Below, piece after piece: positions 28,439 through 49,418 of a stretch of DNA of 64,000 bases. Each line of letters starts with the position of its first letter. Positions within the stretch are counted from its first letter, which is position 1. Source of the DNA: Alphaproteobacteria bacterium (GTDB lineage: Bacteria; Pseudomonadota; Alphaproteobacteria; Rhodobacterales; Rhodobacteraceae); the NCBI GenBank assembly GCA_030431825.1, contig JAUIIJ010000009.1, positions 1 to 64,000 on the forward strand. Reading direction: 5' to 3'. The translations under genes and the position numbers were made by a program. The notes beneath the pieces are model-generated. The model saw only the letters and a list, made by a program, of their open reading frames with translations. It ran no database searches and was not told the origin of the DNA.

Positions 28439-29218
28439 TCAGATCGAACGCTCGACCATCATATGTTTGATCTCGGCAATCGCCTTGGCCGGGTTCAGAC
28501 CCTTGGGGCAGGTCTTGGCACAGTTCATGATCGTGTGGCAGCGATAGAGCTTGTACGGGTCTTCAAGCTCGTCCAGCCGTTCCCCGGTCGCCTCGTCACG
28601 GCTGTCGATGATCCAGCGATAGGCGTGCAGCAGCGCCGCAGGGCCGAGGTAACGATCGCCGTTCCACCAGTAGGACGGGCAGGATGTGGAACAAGACGCA
28701 CACATCACGCATTCATAGAGACCGTCCAGCTTCTTGCGATCCTCGATGGACTGCTTCCATTCCTTGGCCGGGCGGTTGGTCTTGGTTTCGAGCCACGGCA
28801 TGATGCTGGCATGCTGGGCGTAGAAATGTGTGAGGTCCGGGATCAGGTCCTTGACCACCGGCATGTGCGGCAGCGGATAGATACTCACGTCACCCTTGAT
28901 CTCATCCAACCCGTAGATGCAGGCGAGCGTGTTGATACCGTCGATGTTCATCGCACATGACCCGCAAATCCCCTCGCGGCAGGAACGGCGGAATGTCAAT
29001 GTCGGGTCGATTTCGTTCTTGATCTTGATCAGCGCGTCCAGAACCATCGGGCCGCATTTGTCCATATCAAGGAAATAGGTATCCACACGCGGATTCTGAC
29101 CGTCATCCGGGGTCCAGCGATAGATCTGGAACTTGCGCACATTCGTGGCGTCTTCGGGCTTTGGCCAGGTCTTGCCGGTGGTGATTCGGCTGTTCTTGGG
29201 AAGCGTCAGTTGGACCAT
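28439..29218 (-). CDS. sdhB: Succinate dehydrogenase iron-sulfur subunit
   Basis: SdhB carries electrons from FAD to quinone through [2Fe-2S], [4Fe-4S] and [3Fe-4S] clusters. The three cysteine groups are visible: [22 protein letters not shown] and [12 protein letters not shown]. The 259-residue length is normal. The start at 29218 ([12 protein letters not shown]) is used; the track's first 48 residues are non-coding. It is separated from sdhA by two unrelated genes (sulfotransferase and FkbM methyltransferase), which is unusual. Confidence 0.98.
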
Positions 29219-29291
29219 TGCAAATACCTCACTGGGCGGAAAGTTGGGTGTGGCGGTTCGGACCACGTGTATGTCGGTGCAGGGCGGCGCA

Positions 29292-30008
29292 TCAGTTTCG
29301 CACCTCCCATCGTGTGAACAGGGCGTCAAGCAAGCGGGGCCGTGCGCCCCCCCTGCCATCACCGGTACTGCGCAGGATGTCCCGAAGCTCGAGCCCCGCC
29401 CCGGCGAGTTCGGACATCACCCTGCTGGGCGGAGCGATGTCGTCGAACCGGTTGGTCAGCGACAGTTCCAGGATCACAAAGTCGCAGCGCAGCAGCGTCT
29501 GGGCGGCACCCTGCAAGACCTCGAGTTCGAAGCCCTCGGTGTCGATCTTGAGACCGACGCGTCCGGGATAGTTTGCCATGATCCGATCCAGCGGCACCAC
29601 CGGAACGGTGCGTATGTCATAGCTTGTGACCCCTTTTGCCATAGGACCCGCAATCGGCTTGAACCCGGCCATTGCGGGGTTTCTGCCCTTGCGCAAGACG
29701 GGGATCCGCAAGTCCATCCGGCCTGAATCCGCGCCGACGGCGCAGGCGTGGAAATCGAAATCTGCGGGCGCACCATTCGCGATCGTCGCGGCTTCGGCCT
29801 CGGGACGCGGATCGATCAGCACGAATTTCCGGTCGGCAAAGGCGCGGTAAAGCTGCGGCGTACCGGTATGTACCCCGACATCGACAATCACATCGGTTTC
29901 GGCTCCAAAACCACGCAGATAATCCTCCTGCCGCCCCTTGTCGGGGACCGCCACAAGACCGCGTTGCCGCAACGCCTTGCGGAACATATGATCGCTGATC
30001 GCCCTCAC
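29292..30008 (-). CDS. FkbM family methyltransferase inserted in the sdh operon
   Basis: A 238-residue SAM-dependent methyltransferase of the FkbM type. The SAM-binding loop is [18 protein letters not shown], with the acidic ribose-contact region [13 protein letters not shown], and later [17 protein letters not shown], the FkbM hallmark. Such enzymes O-methylate sugars or polyketides. It starts with GTG overlapping the sulfotransferase stop by 4 nt, so the two are coupled. It lies 73 nt before sdhB. Its target is probably a surface glycan or small molecule (inference). Confidence 0.83.
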
Positions 30009-30826
30009 GACGCGAACAGCCCCTGATTTCCAGCGATCAATTCTCTGATCGCGCGCCGTGCGGCGCGGTCGAGCTTGAGCTGATTTACAAGGCGCTGAAA
30101 TTCGACACTGCCGGTGTTCATGCGAACCTTTCTGCGTCCGCGTGCCGGGCTCAGCGCCGCGATCTCTGTTGCGGACAGCCCCGCATGATGCAGGAGTTGT
30201 TGGCCTGGACGCTCGGGCGTCGGCTCATCCTCGACACGAAAAAACCGTGCGCGGGTCGGGCCGACCGCAAGTTCAAGGCGACGTTGCACATCGCTCCAGT
30301 CTCGGCATGCTTCGGTCTCGGACAGGAATTCGGCGAGCGTCCCGGTATAACCATCGGAACAGATCGCCTGACTGTGCACGCTGCGTTTCCATGCATCCAT
30401 ACCACGGGTGTAGATTGCGTAATCGGGACGCAACGGCGCGAACGCCCGCTCAAGCGCATCGACGATGGGCTCGAGTTGCGGATAGAGCGATACCGTACCG
30501 CCATTTCCCGGCATTGCGCCCAACAGGTTCTCGTGGCTGAGAAGCACCGTGCCCGCGTCCTGCCGCAATATCGCATCGCGCAGAAGCATTGCGCATTCAC
30601 GCAAGCGCATCATCCGCTTGTCAGACGGTCGCAGGCTGAACCGCATGGCCGCATTGCCCAGATCGCGCGTCGCCGAGCCCTTGACAGGCGTCAGTATCGC
30701 GAGCCGCCCGGCCAGTTTGTCACGGTTGCGGCCCAGAAAATGCTGCAACGACGTCGAACCGGTCTTCTGAACACCACAATGGATGATCAGGCGCTTGGCT
30801 GTGCTGCTGTCTGGTCCCGTGTCCAA
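30005..30826 (-). CDS. Sulfotransferase-like protein inserted in the sdh operon
   Basis: A 273-residue protein with the PAPS-dependent sulfotransferase P-loop-like 5'-phosphosulfate motif HCGVQKTGSTSLQHFLGRN at the N-terminus and a probable 3'-phosphate-binding stretch YTRGMDAWKRSVHS. There is no signal peptide. The TTG start at 30826 follows GGAGCAAGGGCT and lies 15 nt after the sdhA stop, so it should be co-transcribed with sdh. Similar proteins act on carbohydrates or lipids; the acceptor is unknown. Confidence 0.8.
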   Translation of the reverse strand: MDTGPDSSTAKRLIIHCGVQKTGSTSLQHFLGRNRDKLAGRLAILTPVKGSATRDLGNAAMRFSLRPSDKRMMRLRECAMLLRDAILRQDAGTVLLSHENLLGAMPGNGGTVSLYPQLEPIVDALERAFAPLRPDYAIYTRGMDAWKRSVHSQAICSDGYTGTLAEFLSETEACRDWSDVQRRLELAVGPTRARFFRVEDEPTPERPGQQLLHHAGLSATEIAALSPARGRRKVRMNTGSVEFQRLVNQLKLDRAARRAIRELIAGNQGLFAS

Positions 30827-30841: not shown

Positions 30842-32650
30842 CTAGAACGTCCGGGCTTTGGGCGCGATCTTCTTGAGACTGATACCGCCCTCGGCTTCGG
30901 TGGACAGCGGGTCGACCACCACGGGACGGTAGGACAAGTCCACGTTGCGTCCGTTTACCCGGCTTATCGTGTGAACCCGCCAGTCGTCATCGTTACGATC
31001 GGGGAAATCTTCATGCGCGTGCGCCCCCCGGCTCTCATGACGTGCCTCGGCCCCGGTGATGGTGGCCAGCGCGTTCGGCATCAGGTTGGTCAGTTCCAGC
31101 GTCTCCATGAGGTCGCTGTTCCACACCAGACTGCGATCCGTGACGCGCAGGTCCGACATCTTGGCCGCGACCTCGTCCATGCGCTTGACACCTTCGGCGA
31201 GGGTCTTGGATGTGCGGAACACGGCGGCATCGGCCTGCATGCATTTCTGCATCTCAAGGCGCAATTCGGCAGTCGGAACCGACCCCTGCGCATTGCGCAG
31301 CGTGTCGAACCGATCAAAGGCGGCATCGACCGACGCCTGGTTCAGTGCGGCATTCGCCTTGGACGGATCAACAACCTTGCCCGCACGAATGGCGGCGGCG
31401 CGGCCGAACACGACCAGGTCGATCAACGAATTCGAGCCCAGGCGGTTGGCCCCGTGCACCGAAGCGCATCCCGCTTCTCCAACCGCCATCAGACCCGGCA
31501 CCACCGCGTTCTGATCCTCTGCGGTCGGGTTGAGCACTTCTCCCCAATAGTTCGTGGGAATGCCGCCCATGTTATAATGCACCGTCGGAATGACCGGGAT
31601 CGGTTCCTTGGTGACGTCGACCCCGGCAAAAATCCTGGCGCTCTCCGAGATTCCCGGCAGCCGTTCCGCCAGCGCTTCCGGCGGCAGGTGCGACAGGTTC
31701 AGGTGGATATGGTCGCCTTCGGCACCGACTCCCCTGCCCTCGCGGATTTCCATGGTCATCGAGCGGCTGACATAATCGCGCGGGGCGAGGTCCTTGTACT
31801 GCGGGGCATAGCGCTCCATGAACCGCTCGCCTTCCGAGTTGGTCAGGTAACCGCCCTCACCGCGCGCGCCTTCGGTAATCAGGCAGCCGGAACCGTAGAT
31901 ACCGGTAGGGTGGAACTGGACAAATTCCATATCCTGCAACGGCAGACCGGCGCGGGCCACCATACCACCGCCGTCGCCGGTGCAGGTATGCGCCGACGTG
32001 GCACTGAAATAGGCGCGGCCATAGCCACCGGTGGCCAGAACCACCATCTTGGCGCTGAACACGTGCATGGTCCCGTCGTCGAGTTTCCAGCAGACCACCC
32101 CCTGACAGGCACCGTCTTCGGTCATGATCAGGTCGATTGCGAAATACTCGACGTAGAATTCGGCATTGTTCTTGAGGCTCTGTCCGTAAAGCGTGTGCAG
32201 GATCGCGTGTCCGGTCCTGTCCGCGGCGGCGCAGGTCCGTTGCACCGGGGGACCATCGCCGAACTCGGTCGTGTGCCCCCCAAAGGGCCGCTGATAGATC
32301 TTCCCCTCTTCGGTGCGGCTGAAGGGCACGCCGTAATGCTCAAGCTCATACACCGCCTTGGGGGCCTCGCGCGCCAGGTATTCCATCGCGTCCGTGTCGC
32401 CCAGCCAGTCCGATCCCTTGACCGTGTCGTACATGTGCCACTGCCAGTTGTCGGGCCCCATGTTGGAAAGCGAAGCCGCAATACCGCCCTGCGCGGCAAC
32501 CGTGTGCGACCGCGTCGGGAAAACCTTGGTTACACAGGCGGTCCGAAGGCCCTGCTCCGCCATGCCCAGGGTCGCGCGAAGACCCGCGCCCCCTGCTCCG
32601 ACGACCACGACGTCATATTCATGCGTCTCGTATTCGTATGTTGCAGTCAT
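30842..32650 (-). CDS. sdhA: Succinate dehydrogenase flavoprotein subunit
   Basis: SdhA oxidises succinate to fumarate. The N-terminal FAD dinucleotide motif is [13 protein letters not shown], the histidine for covalent FAD is H49 in [11 protein letters not shown], and the active-site region [21 protein letters not shown] is intact. The 602-residue length is standard. The gene lies 23 nt after sdhD, and its 3' neighbour is the inserted sulfotransferase gene instead of sdhB. Confidence 0.98.
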
Positions 32651-32673: not shown

Positions 32674-33045
32674 TCAGAGCGCGATTTTGACAAGAGCGAA
32701 GAGGCCCGCTGCGATAAGTGTGTAGGCAAAGGCACCCACGGCGATATAGGCCAGTTTGGCCGCTGTTCCGCCCATGTAGTCCTCGATCGCTTCCTGCGCC
32801 TCGTATTTGACGTGGTTGATCCCCACGATCAGCGTCAGCGCCGTCAGGATGGCCGGGAATGGCCGCCCGAAATAGGCGATCACCTCTTCATGCGTACCAC
32901 CAAGACCGATACCGAAGGTAAAGATGAACGGCGGCACCAGAACGCAAAGCAGGATGGAACTGACCAGCATCTGCCAGTGATGGTCGGTTCCGTGCCGCGA
33001 TGATCCCAGTCCTTCGGCGCGTTTGCGGTCGGTAAGATATCTCAT
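32674..33045 (-). CDS. sdhD: Succinate dehydrogenase membrane anchor subunit
   Basis: A 123-residue three-helix anchor of complex II. The start at 33045 (MRYLTDRKRAEGLG) has a GGAGAG ribosome-binding site; the upstream track extension is an sdhC shadow. Histidine-containing helix ends (GINHVKYEAQEAIEDY) are suited to heme and quinone binding. It starts 11 nt after sdhC. Confidence 0.95.
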   Translation of the reverse strand: MRYLTDRKRAEGLGSSRHGTDHHWQMLVSSILLCVLVPPFIFTFGIGLGGTHEEVIAYFGRPFPAILTALTLIVGINHVKYEAQEAIEDYMGGTAAKLAYIAVGAFAYTLIAAGLFALVKIAL

Positions 33046-33056
33046 GGTCACTCTCC

Positions 33057-33446
33057 TTACACCGCGATCGCCGTAATGATGGTCAGCACCGTGGCTCCGA
33101 TGAACATGCCAAGGCCCATGCGCTCGGACACGCCGACTTCCAGCAGATAGCCGAAATCCCAGATGACATGCCGGAGGCGCCCCAGAACATGATACCAGAT
33201 CGCCCATGTTGCCAGCAGCATCAGGATATCGCCAACGACACTGCGCAACAGGCCGTCAACCACGGCGAACGCGCTCTCGGATGTCGCCGCCGTCAGCAGC
33301 CAGAGCACGATCAGAAACGCCGTACCCAGCGATGCGATGCCGGTAATGCGCACCATGATGGATGAGATCGAGGTCATCTGTGGGCGGTAGTATTGCCCGA
33401 TCATAAACGGAGATAGCGGGCGATTGCCCCGATTGACGTCAGCCAT
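33057..33446 (-). CDS. sdhC: Succinate dehydrogenase cytochrome b556 subunit
   Basis: A 129-residue heme b subunit of complex II. The start at 33446 (ADVNRGNRPLSPF) has an AAGGACC ribosome-binding site. The family motif RPLSPFMIGQYYRPQMTSI and the heme-ligand region YHVLGRLRHVIWDFG are present, with three hydrophobic helices. First gene of the sdh operon; a paired palindrome lies 116-147 nt upstream. Confidence 0.96.
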   Translation of the reverse strand: MADVNRGNRPLSPFMIGQYYRPQMTSISSIMVRITGIASLGTAFLIVLWLLTAATSESAFAVVDGLLRSVVGDILMLLATWAIWYHVLGRLRHVIWDFGYLLEVGVSERMGLGMFIGATVLTIITAIAV

Positions 33447-33521
33447 GGCGGGTCCTTTGCAGATGCTTTTGCCCGTTTTTAAACCTTTTTTTCCCGCTGT
33501 CACCCATGCACGACATGATTA

Positions 33522-40782: not shown

Positions 40783-40785
40783 GCA

Positions 40786-41106
40786 GTGAAGAAGACTAGG
40801 GAAACCGACCTATCCGCAGGAGCGGTAAGGAACTGCAACATCGACCTGCGTGGCAGCCCATTTTTCCTTGCACTCTTCACTGGCGGTTCGAATGAAAACG
40901 AAGCCCCATCGAAACGCCTGAAGGTCACTTTCAAAAACGGGCCAGAAGCAGAAATGTGGGTATACAGGGACAAGAAAATTCTCACGCCTCGAAAAGGGCC
41001 AGTGTCATTATTCTTCACTGCGAACAATGTCAAAGATGGTCATTCCGTACGCTTGCGGATCACTCAGAAGGCCCTGGGAGAATTGTTTGTAGAGAGGGCT
41101 CTATGA
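40786..41106 (+). CDS. Orphan ORF with atypical composition between sucC and sucD
   Basis: A 106-residue ORF starting with GTG 4 nt after the sucC stop. It is basic, has no signal peptide or membrane helix, and contains KRLKVTFKNGPEAEMWVYRD and HSVRLRITQKALGELF, suggestive of a beta-rich fold. I do not recognise it. Its AT content and codon choice differ visibly from the suc genes, pointing to recent acquisition. About 95 nt of similarly atypical DNA follows. Confidence 0.5.
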   Translation: MKKTRETDLSAGAVRNCNIDLRGSPFFLALFTGGSNENEAPSKRLKVTFKNGPEAEMWVYRDKKILTPRKGPVSLFFTANNVKDGHSVRLRITQKALGELFVERAL

Positions 41107-41201
41107 TGGCTGCTGCGTACAGCCACTTCACGGTATCTTACTGTCAAGGCTCAACTGTTTTGCAGTATGAAATGTGTCGCTCGCCGAGATAGTAAGTTCA
41201 G

Positions 41202-41792
41202 GTGATCCGCCCCCTCCTCATATCCCTCCTGCTGGCCACACCAGCCGCCGCGCAATCCCCGCGCGAGGCGGTGGCGCGGGTGTGGGAAACGTTTCAGACC
41301 GACTGCAAGGCGGCGCTGTTTGGACAGTCGGCCTTTATCGCCGAAACGCCCAATCCCGGCCCCAATGGCATCAGCACCGTGGCCCGGTCGGCGGATGGTC
41401 AGATCGTCGAGGCCCGGCGCTTTGCCGACAATCAGATGGTCACGCTGCGCGTGACCGGCCTGCCGGGGATGCGGATGAACACCTGTTCGGCGCATGACCA
41501 GGGGTTCAATGCGGCCGAGATCAACCTTGCGCTGTCCACCGATCCCGGCCCCTGGGTTGCGGCCTTTGAAGAGATCGTGCGCCCCGCCTCGCCGGCACAG
41601 ATCGTCGGTGGCAATCTGCCCATCGGCTTTGTCGCGCGGGGCATGGCAGGTGAATTCATCGGCCAGAATGACGCGCTGTCCCACCATTATGCGGCGCTGT
41701 TTGACTGGAACGGCGAACAGGTGCCGGTCTCGATCATCATTGCGCCCTATTCGCTGGTCTTCACCGCTATCCGATTGGAGGTTCCGGAATGA
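41202..41792 (+). CDS. Putative periplasmic protein in the suc operon (1)
   Basis: A 196-residue protein with a short signal peptide (IRPLLISLLLATPAAAQS) and a GTG start. The mature part has two cysteines (FQTDCKAAL and MNTCSAHDQG) and no recognisable domain. It overlaps the next ORF by 4 nt (ATGA), so the pair is coupled. Composition matches the host. Similar leaders and lengths suggest the two proteins may work together. Confidence 0.7.
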   Translation: MIRPLLISLLLATPAAAQSPREAVARVWETFQTDCKAALFGQSAFIAETPNPGPNGISTVARSADGQIVEARRFADNQMVTLRVTGLPGMRMNTCSAHDQGFNAAEINLALSTDPGPWVAAFEEIVRPASPAQIVGGNLPIGFVARGMAGEFIGQNDALSHHYAALFDWNGEQVPVSIIIAPYSLVFTAIRLEVPE

Positions 41793-42319
41793 TCCGCCTG
41801 ATCGCCGTGCTGCTGTGCCTTGGCACCGCCGCTTCTGCGCAAACCGTCGAGGAAGCGGCGCGTATCAACGCCGAGATTGCCCTGCAATTCTGCATCCAGC
41901 CGCATGTGCAACCCGAGATGCGCGCGCAGATGTTTCGCAATTCGGGCTTTGCCGAACGGGTGGAGCGCAGCCAGGGAAACAGTGACACCACCCATTATTT
42001 CACCGCGCCTGCCGACACCGTGCATATCGAACTCTATTACGGCGAGATGCCCGAACATTGTCGCGTGACGAGCAACCATCTCGACGTCAGCGCGGCGGCG
42101 CCGGTGCTCGATGCGGTGGTGCCGCGCTTCTATCCCGGCTTCGTGCGGCGCGTGACCTATGGCCCCGTGAACCCGGCGACCGGGCAACCGGTGCAATGTG
42201 TCGCCTATCAGGACCCGAGCAATCCGATCGGGCTTGAAATCGGGGTTGGCGCATGGGGCGGTGCCCAGGGCTGTGTCGCGAACGGCACCAGCGTCTTTTA
42301 TCTCACCTATCGCGTATAA
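41789..42319 (+). CDS. Putative periplasmic protein in the suc operon (2)
   Basis: A 176-residue protein with signal peptide [18 protein letters not shown]. Cysteines occur in [26 protein letters not shown] and QGCVANGT, enough for two disulfides. No known domain is recognised. It ends 20 nt before sucD, so it should be part of the suc transcript. Confidence 0.7.
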
Positions 42320-42338
42320 TCATGAAAAGGGACCAGAT

Positions 42339-43222: not shown

Positions 43223-43747
43223 ATGCCCGTCCTGTGTGCATTCTGGCTGGAACTGCGCCGGTCCCTTGATTTCAGGGGCCGGACGGCGCGTGCGCGCTAT
43301 TTCGGGTTCATGAGTGTCGCCATATCGGTATTTGCCTCGGCAAGCTGGATTGCGGTTGCCACCCTTCCCGATGGACAGGGGTGGGTCGGAATCCTTGTCC
43401 TCATCGCCCTGTTTTATGTGCCGGTCACATCCGCTGGCGTTCGCAGACTGCATGACACGGGCAACCCCGTTACGCTCATGCTCGACCCGCTCAAGCCGCT
43501 GGCGGCTTTTGGCGTGATCGCCTTTTTGATCGGAGTGGCGTTTCTCTCCAGCGATGTGGGAATCCTCGCGCTGTTTGCGTCGCTGTTTCTGGCCGGTAAG
43601 ATCATGGCAGCGCTGGTCGTTATCGCCGCCCTCTTGATGCTTGGCCTCACAATGATTTTCTTTTCGCACACGATGGGGCAATTGATGTTGCCTTCTCAGC
43701 CCGGGACCAACACATATGGCCCTGACCCACACCAGGTGCCTGCATGA
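43223..43747 (+). CDS. DUF805 membrane protein (1) in the suc operon
   Basis: A 174-residue membrane protein of the DUF805 family. RSLDFRGRTARARYFGFM near the N-terminus and GVRRLHDTGNP are the family signatures, with about four hydrophobic helices and a C-terminal PGTNTYGPDPH motif. It starts 2 nt after sucD and overlaps the second DUF805 gene by 4 nt. Function unknown. Confidence 0.85.
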   Translation: MPVLCAFWLELRRSLDFRGRTARARYFGFMSVAISVFASASWIAVATLPDGQGWVGILVLIALFYVPVTSAGVRRLHDTGNPVTLMLDPLKPLAAFGVIAFLIGVAFLSSDVGILALFASLFLAGKIMAALVVIAALLMLGLTMIFFSHTMGQLMLPSQPGTNTYGPDPHQVPA

Positions 43748-44283
43748 CGTTCACACAAGCGATCAAAACCTGCCTCGGCAAATATGTGACCTTCTCGGGC
43801 CGGGCGTCTCGCCCGGAATACTGGTTTTTCTTCCTGTTCGTGATCTTGCTCGGCCTTGCCGCCGCGGCGATCGACTGGATGTTCTTCACCTCTGTCACCA
43901 GCATCAGCAGCGAAGCGGCAAATGCCACCGTGATACAGTCGTCTCAGCCGGTGCAATCCGTGGTGGCGCTCGTGGTTTTCCTGCCGCACCTGGCGGTGGC
44001 GTGGCGACGGATGCACGATACCGGACGCAGCGGATGGCATGTGCTGTTGCCGACATTGCTGGCGATGGTCGCCTTCGCGGTGCTGGTCTTTGGCATTGGC
44101 GCGGCCAGCCATTTCCATGGCGGCACCATGGATCGCCTGCTGACGGGTGCCACCCTGCTGATCCTGCTGCCGACGCTGATCGTGCTCTTGATCTCGCCCC
44201 TTCTCGTTCTGTTCTGGCTCAGTCGGCCCAGCCAGCCTGAAACCAACAAATACGGTCCCAACCCACATGAGGTACAACCATGA
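43744..44283 (+). CDS. DUF805 membrane protein (2) in the suc operon
   Basis: A 179-residue DUF805 paralogue. It has YVTFSGRASRPEYWFFFLFV, AWRRMHDTGRSGW and the same C-terminal pattern ETNKYGPNPHEV. It overlaps both the first DUF805 gene and sucA by 4 nt (ATGA), so sucA translation may depend on it. The two copies differ enough to be an old duplication. Confidence 0.87.
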   Translation: MTFTQAIKTCLGKYVTFSGRASRPEYWFFFLFVILLGLAAAAIDWMFFTSVTSISSEAANATVIQSSQPVQSVVALVVFLPHLAVAWRRMHDTGRSGWHVLLPTLLAMVAFAVLVFGIGAASHFHGGTMDRLLTGATLLILLPTLIVLLISPLLVLFWLSRPSQPETNKYGPNPHEVQP

Positions 44284-48790: not shown

Positions 48791-49015
48791 ATGCCGCCAA
48801 TAAAACCGATCGATCTGCGGTCGCGCGTCAGGAACTGGTGGCATGGTGAAACTGTGGTAGATGAAAGTCCCGGGGCCATAATTTTTACAACTCGGCGGCA
48901 CTGGACTTCCAATTTGGCGCACAAGTTCGTCGACTTCGTTGCTCGCAAGTGGGAAAAGATCGCCACTTTGGCCATCGCGCCGGCGGGACTGGTTCTTGCT
49001 TATCTATCACTATGA
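48791..49015 (+). CDS. Small orphan ORF between sucB and the MAPEG gene
   Basis: A 74-residue ORF, ATG 17 nt after the sucB stop with AGGTAGG upstream. It is basic, contains RNWWHGETVVDESPGAIIF and ends in a single hydrophobic helix (IATLAIAPAGLVLAYLSL), so it may be a tail-anchored membrane protein. I do not recognise it. Composition is less GC-rich than its neighbours, like the orphan ORF after sucC. Confidence 0.5.
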   Translation: MPPIKPIDLRSRVRNWWHGETVVDESPGAIIFTTRRHWTSNLAHKFVDFVARKWEKIATLAIAPAGLVLAYLSL

Positions 49016-49028
49016 GAGAACGCTAGCT

Positions 49029-49418
49029 ATGACCCCCGAACTCACCGCCCTCACCCTCGCTGCGCTGCTGCAAATCCTGCAATTCGCGGCCTATTCGATC
49101 ACCGCCAACCTCCAGGTCGGATCGAAAACTGCGCTCGGCCCGCGCGACACTCCGGTACACCTCACCGGCACCGCAGGCCGCCTGCAACGGGCGATGAACA
49201 ACCATTTCGAGGGTCTGATACTCTTCACCATCCCCTGCGTGACCATCGCTCTGACCGATCAGTCCACCGCCTTCACCGCAACCTGCGCCTGGGCCTATCT
49301 CGTGGCCCGCATCCTCTATGTCCCCGCCTATGCCCTCGGCCTGAGCCCCTGGCGCTCGGTGATCTGGATGGTCGGCCTCATCGCCACCGCCCTGATGCTG
49401 CTGGCCTCCCTGACATGA
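49029..49418 (+). CDS. MAPEG family membrane protein
   Basis: A 129-residue, four-helix membrane protein of the MAPEG family (relatives include microsomal glutathione transferases and YecN). The signature region is GRLQRAMNNHFEGLILF followed by YLVARILYVPAYALG. The start at 49029 gives TPELTALTLAALLQ. Bacterial MAPEG proteins mostly lack an assigned reaction. It lies between sucB and lpdA. Confidence 0.87.
   Translation: MTPELTALTLAALLQILQFAAYSITANLQVGSKTALGPRDTPVHLTGTAGRLQRAMNNHFEGLILFTIPCVTIALTDQSTAFTATCAWAYLVARILYVPAYALGLSPWRSVIWMVGLIATALMLLASLT

Follow-up and report, generated by a model that had tools for sequence, protein, structure and literature searches.

In the 64,000-nucleotide stretch of Rhodobacteraceae DNA analyzed here (referred to below as the window), the sdh genes are all located on the minus strand, in the order sdhC, sdhD, sdhA, sulfotransferase-like gene, FkbM methyltransferase gene and sdhB. 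The sdhC (33057–33443, with a possible ORF start at 33503) and sdhD (32674–33045) genes both match Pfam PF01127 (E 4e-19 and 5e-9, respectively), and sdhA (30842–32650; PF00890 and PF02910) and sdhB (28439–29218; PF13085 and PF13183) are each the single match in the genome. The sulfotransferase-like gene (30005–30826) begins with a TTG codon 15 nt after the stop codon of sdhA, with a GGAG ribosome-binding site 8 nt upstream of the TTG, and shares a 4-nt overlap (GTGA) with the GTG-started gene of an FkbM-family methyltransferase (29292–30008), which is separated from sdhB by a spacer of 73 nt (29219–29291). Rechecking the coordinates and reading frames confirmed this anatomy as it had been given in the first-pass annotation, from the TTG start to the 73-nt spacer, and the tight spacing and the direction shared by the inserted pair with the sdh genes were borne out. 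The good composition also attributed to the pair holds for the FkbM gene and fails for the sulfotransferase-like gene, where GC3 and the codon score are both low in comparison with the genes of the window (z -2.3 and z -2.0, respectively).

The product of the 29292–30008 gene is unambiguously a member of the FkbM family, based on both PF05050 (50.5 bits versus a cut-off of 22.7; E 3e-13) and TIGR01444 (58.6 bits versus 37.7; E 9e-16). It differs from the family at large in that the close relatives found all occupy the sdh site: these are only two in number, in genomes G006 (63% identity) and G187 (57%), and both are located between sdhA and sdhB, with different neighbours.

The sulfotransferase-like protein matched no Pfam or NCBIfam model at all, and a sequence search among solved structures yielded nothing meaningful. 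Profile–profile comparison nevertheless links it to P-loop proteins of these genomes (hhalign E 6e-34), five of which score PF17784 (Sulfotransfer_4) at E values of 2e-4 to 9e-4, just below the cut-off (best score among the relatives 21.5 bits, versus 22.8 bits required), and some of its orthologues weakly match three sulfotransferase families. In an alignment of 15 orthologues, the largely invariant positions are the P-loop-like segment QKTGST, which includes the invariant K21, the SHEN segment, and R141 and S149, which are invariant and lie 8 residues apart. We take this spacing to be that of the 3'-phosphate site of sulfotransferases, as known from the SULT literature. The predicted structure (pLDDT 89) adopts a P-loop nucleotide-kinase-like fold, and the fold search placed SULT1D1 at rank 32 (E 5e-3), beneath adenylate and thymidylate kinases, so that the fold by itself cannot settle the enzyme class. 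This ranking and the failure of the Pfam and NCBIfam models to match the protein are what would be expected of a P-loop kinase-like enzyme with some other activity; in view of the QKTGST segment, the R141/S149 pair, the hhalign link to Sulfotransfer_4-scoring proteins and the weak family matches of the orthologues, we regard this identity as improbable. On the grounds of distant homology, the protein is likely to be a PAPS-dependent sulfotransferase.

Scanning the minus strand of the operon revealed no promoter-like site, and the terminator-like sites detected there were weak and near chance level. The first-pass annotation had envisaged that an internal promoter and terminator might isolate the pair from the sdh transcript; on the strand of the operon, no such element rises clearly above the chance level. 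Upstream of sdhB, in the 73-nt spacer as in the corresponding segment of 117 genomes, the ribosome-binding site was the only signal conserved across genera, and no conserved attachment or regulatory sequence was found. To judge from the sequence, the inserted pair would be co-transcribed with the sdh genes in the window genome. In Ruegeria pomeroyi, co-transcription with the flanking genes was established by RT-PCR in the case of SPO_PG016, a 93-aa product encoded within sdhCDAB, and co-transcription was likewise found for SPO_PG006, which lies between sucC and sucD (Christie-Oleza et al., 2012, BMC Genomics 13:73, PMC3305630).

The sdhA and sdhB genes were located in 200 genomes of Rhodobacteraceae/Roseobacteraceae, taken as a rule one per genus, and the matches listed include sdhA/sdhB pairs from 133 genomes (132 genera), a sample leaning to closer relatives. 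Among these listed matches, the sdhA–sdhB gap amounts to at least 250 nt in 117 of the 133 genomes: it extends from 256 nt to 9.3 kb past the sdhA stop codon in these 117 and measures 10–76 nt in the other 16. In other families of the class, the gap is at most 161 nt in 14 of 17 genomes and reaches at least 250 nt in only three (117/133 versus 3/17, Fisher p 4e-9). The other junctions of the operon are narrow, since sdhC and sdhD are 7–22 nt apart in 32 of 33 loci (114 nt in the remaining one) and sdhD and sdhA are at most 67 nt apart in 31 of 33. In the ATP synthase operon, which served as a control, atpA and atpG are separated by 11–32 nt in 28 genomes, and the atpH–atpA junction is likewise rigid. 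The random single-strain insertion also considered in the first-pass annotation is ruled out both by this survey and by the presence of sdhA-adjacent orthologues of the sulfotransferase-like gene in other genera.

The gap sequences were retrieved, their genes were called and the proteins were clustered, those of at least 150 aa being counted as large cargo. Many gaps contain one or two small proteins, and most of the cargo is small and lipoprotein-like: a lipobox near the N-terminus was present in 90 of 115 small cargo genes, as compared with 2 of 68 window genes. About 45% of the genomes also carry larger genes, one to five each. Surface-sugar classes were assigned to 79 of the 89 large cargo proteins, this assignment being our own, made from the clusters and Pfam, with several members of clusters 2 and 3 lacking a Pfam match. 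By homology, the large proteins include 35 sulfotransferase-like proteins, 21 methyltransferases (17 SAM methyltransferases, some of them glycosyltransferase fusions, and four FkbM proteins), 17 glycosyltransferases, five polysaccharide pyruvyl transferases and one O-antigen ligase, and large surface-sugar enzymes occur as cargo in 55 of the 133 genomes. The PF13469 domain, the sole class for which a background was counted, was found in 7 of the 89 proteins, against a genome background of about 4 per genome. The large cargo genes run in the same direction as the operon in 83 cases and in the opposite direction in six. In two other genera (G165 and G185), all or part of the cassette, including large cargo genes, runs against the direction of the sdh operon, and sdhB may therefore need its own promoter in these genomes; that sdhB could have a promoter of its own counts against a model based on read-through.

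Cassette sizes range from 0.3 to 4.4 kb, with the single exception of the 9.3-kb gap of G195 (locus L181), which contains transposases. The latter are of the IS1182 type and are accompanied by an MscS-like channel, and perhaps correspond to an insertion in progress. The cargo in general shows no sign of a mobile-element insertion: there is no conserved attachment sequence upstream of sdhB and, among the 89 large cargo genes, which were inspected for integrases and transposases, transposases occur in G195 only. A plasmid origin was likewise dismissed, no close relative having been found among 72,556 plasmid records. As regards a defence system, PADLOC returned a generic methyltransferase-type match (mad2, seven proteins), its viperin-type models matched a single protein, which is probably the radical-SAM product of G008, and it gave no match for the sulfotransferase-like protein of the window. 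The PHROGs matches of the cargo correspond to generic methyltransferase, glycosyltransferase, transposase and radical-SAM models.

The relatives of the sulfotransferase-like protein share its genomic address. In 61 genomes, the six best relatives (49–58% identity) are all encoded downstream of sdhA, within 350 nt, the remaining matches being short or at most 33% identical. Three named records found to carry the gene have it between sdhA and sdhB. Records of Roseovarius and of Phaeobacter marinintestinus are among the relatives in the family to which the window belongs. The history of the gene is discordant with that of its flank: when tested on the alignment of the sulfotransferases, the topology of sdhA was rejected (delta lnL 115, p-AU 7e-30), and the pairwise identities of the two proteins are uncorrelated (rho 0.00). 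The nearest sulfotransferase to that of the window is found in G013, the sdhA of which is only 83% identical, whereas congeners with 93% identity in sdhA show only 51–55% identity in the sulfotransferase. Three states occur within the genus of the window: sulfotransferase plus FkbM (G000, the window genome), sulfotransferase alone (G001, G003, and G004), and a glycosyltransferase-like gene (G002). The tree conflict, together with the same-site relatives, indicates that the cassettes move between lineages while keeping their address. Based on this discordance, exchange most likely proceeds by homologous recombination in the conserved sdhA and sdhB flanks. The sdhA tree is also rejected by sdhB, and the flanks may thus recombine regardless of the cargo.

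The sdhA–sdhB junction is not a unique site, since sucC–sucD and nuoF–nuoG have been invaded likewise, partly by sulfotransferase-like and methyltransferase-like cargo. The sucC–sucD gap is at least 300 nt in 33 of 58 genomes. It is split in the window too (40783–42338), where two co-directional ORFs of secreted type (41202–41792 and 41789–42319) have no Pfam match, and its cargo elsewhere consists of secreted small proteins and of sulfotransferase-, methyltransferase- and glycosyltransferase-like proteins, as classed from reading of the sequences. The nuoF–nuoG cargo comprises small lipoproteins and DUF3291 proteins and, in the window genome and several others, a methyltransferase. The main rival explanation remains that the operons of Rhodobacteraceae simply tolerate insertions, surface-sugar genes turning up in them as the most mobile class of these genomes. 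The invasion of several operons by partly similar cargo and the high variability of the latter are consistent with this neutral scenario, but the atp operon and the sdhC–sdhD junction are never or hardly invaded, the sulfotransferase lineage holds to the sdh site over many genera instead of scattering, and the large genes mostly run with the operon (83/89), and we therefore consider it unlikely.

The first-pass annotation had also implied a special tie between the window pair and complex II. In a rival explanation of this kind, the pair would act on something linked to complex II or to the succinate flux, and co-expression with sdh would be the very point of the arrangement. The co-directionality of the cargo, its co-transcription in a relative (PMC3305630), and the presence of insertions in the operons of the TCA cycle and complex I but not in that of ATP synthase would be compatible with a coupling of this kind. 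However, congeners keep the sulfotransferase alone or other cargo, the slot is filled elsewhere with unrelated enzymes or only with lipoproteins and is devoid of cargo in 16 of the 133 genomes, similar cargo is present in sucC–sucD and nuoF–nuoG, and domain searches of the cargo yielded nothing resembling an SDH assembly factor. The interchangeable content of the slot makes a biochemical tie to complex II unlikely, and we regard functional coupling as very improbable. The link between the pair and sdh looks like one of genomic address and expression rather than of a shared pathway.

With moderate confidence, we interpret the sdhA–sdhB junction as a permissive cargo site in a core operon presumed to be highly expressed, the cargo of which would be read through, swapped, and made up mostly of lipoproteins and surface-sugar enzymes. 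Genes would arrive in the orientation of the sdh genes with a ribosome-binding site of their own, be read through on the sdh transcript, and then be kept, lost or replaced, most likely via homologous recombination in the flanking sdhA and sdhB genes; selection might act on their expression or on surface variation. By homology, small exported lipoproteins and surface-sugar tailoring enzymes dominate the cargo. In the window, the predicted PAPS-dependent sulfotransferase and the putative SAM-dependent FkbM O-methyltransferase would probably add sulfate and methyl groups to a polysaccharide that is exported or to lipopolysaccharide. The PAPS- and SAM-dependent tailoring of a surface glycan put forward in the first-pass annotation is plausible, and it is strengthened by the cargo of the other genera. 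Going further, the core TCA and respiratory operons of the family might serve as dispersed surface-variation loci, the cassettes of which, with their sulfotransferases, methyltransferases, glycosyltransferases and pyruvyl transferases, are swapped between genera through recombination in sdhA and sdhB and tie surface decoration to central metabolism, a possibility which we put forward only tentatively; phage receptor properties, grazer recognition or host recognition would in that case be linked to the expression of central metabolism.

Variable surface-sugar genes located between conserved core genes are a feature of capsule and O-antigen loci. Conserved flanks and a fast turnover of accessory genes are also common to the present locus and the hotspots of horizontal transfer (e.g., PMC5635113). 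The locus studied here differs from the hotspots as well as from the capsule and O-antigen loci in being bordered by the genes for two subunits of a single enzyme, within one operon, and in the cassette sizes given above. The phenomenon of insertion itself has been known since 2012, when poorly conserved extra genes were reported within the sucCD and sdhCDAB operons of roseobacters, and whether they serve the cycle or exploit its high expression was left open (PMC3305630). Like those genes, the window pair lies inside sdhCDAB, is co-directional, varies between genera and is restricted to a clade. The TCA-operon genes described previously, which came to light through proteomics of a single species, lack an assigned function, whereas the present analysis deals with large surface-sugar enzymes and same-site lineages across genera, and control operons were measured. 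No description of sulfotransferase or FkbM cargo at sdhA–sdhB was found in the literature search, which mostly covered journals outside subscription. The surface-glycan theme of the cargo and its locus-bound exchange between genera appear to be new, and they give content to the question, open since 2012, as to why the TCA operons of roseobacters carry extra genes. Should the cargo be expressed together with sdh, surface sulfation and methylation would follow central metabolism in marine bacteria that are abundant, and the sdhA–sdhB junction would provide a PCR-able marker and a test bed for studying how accessory genes settle in core operons without breaking them.

Some further ORFs were observed near core genes. 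Directly downstream of nuoF (L285:95–1370), the window genome encodes a DUF3291 protein together with a SAM methyltransferase (PF13578), and methyltransferases of a similar kind follow nuoF in several other genera. Two ORFs encoding DUF805 membrane proteins are located between sucD and sucA (43223–44283), the second of which overlaps the start of sucA by 4 nt, and sucB and lpd are separated by an ORF of the MAPEG family (48996–49418).
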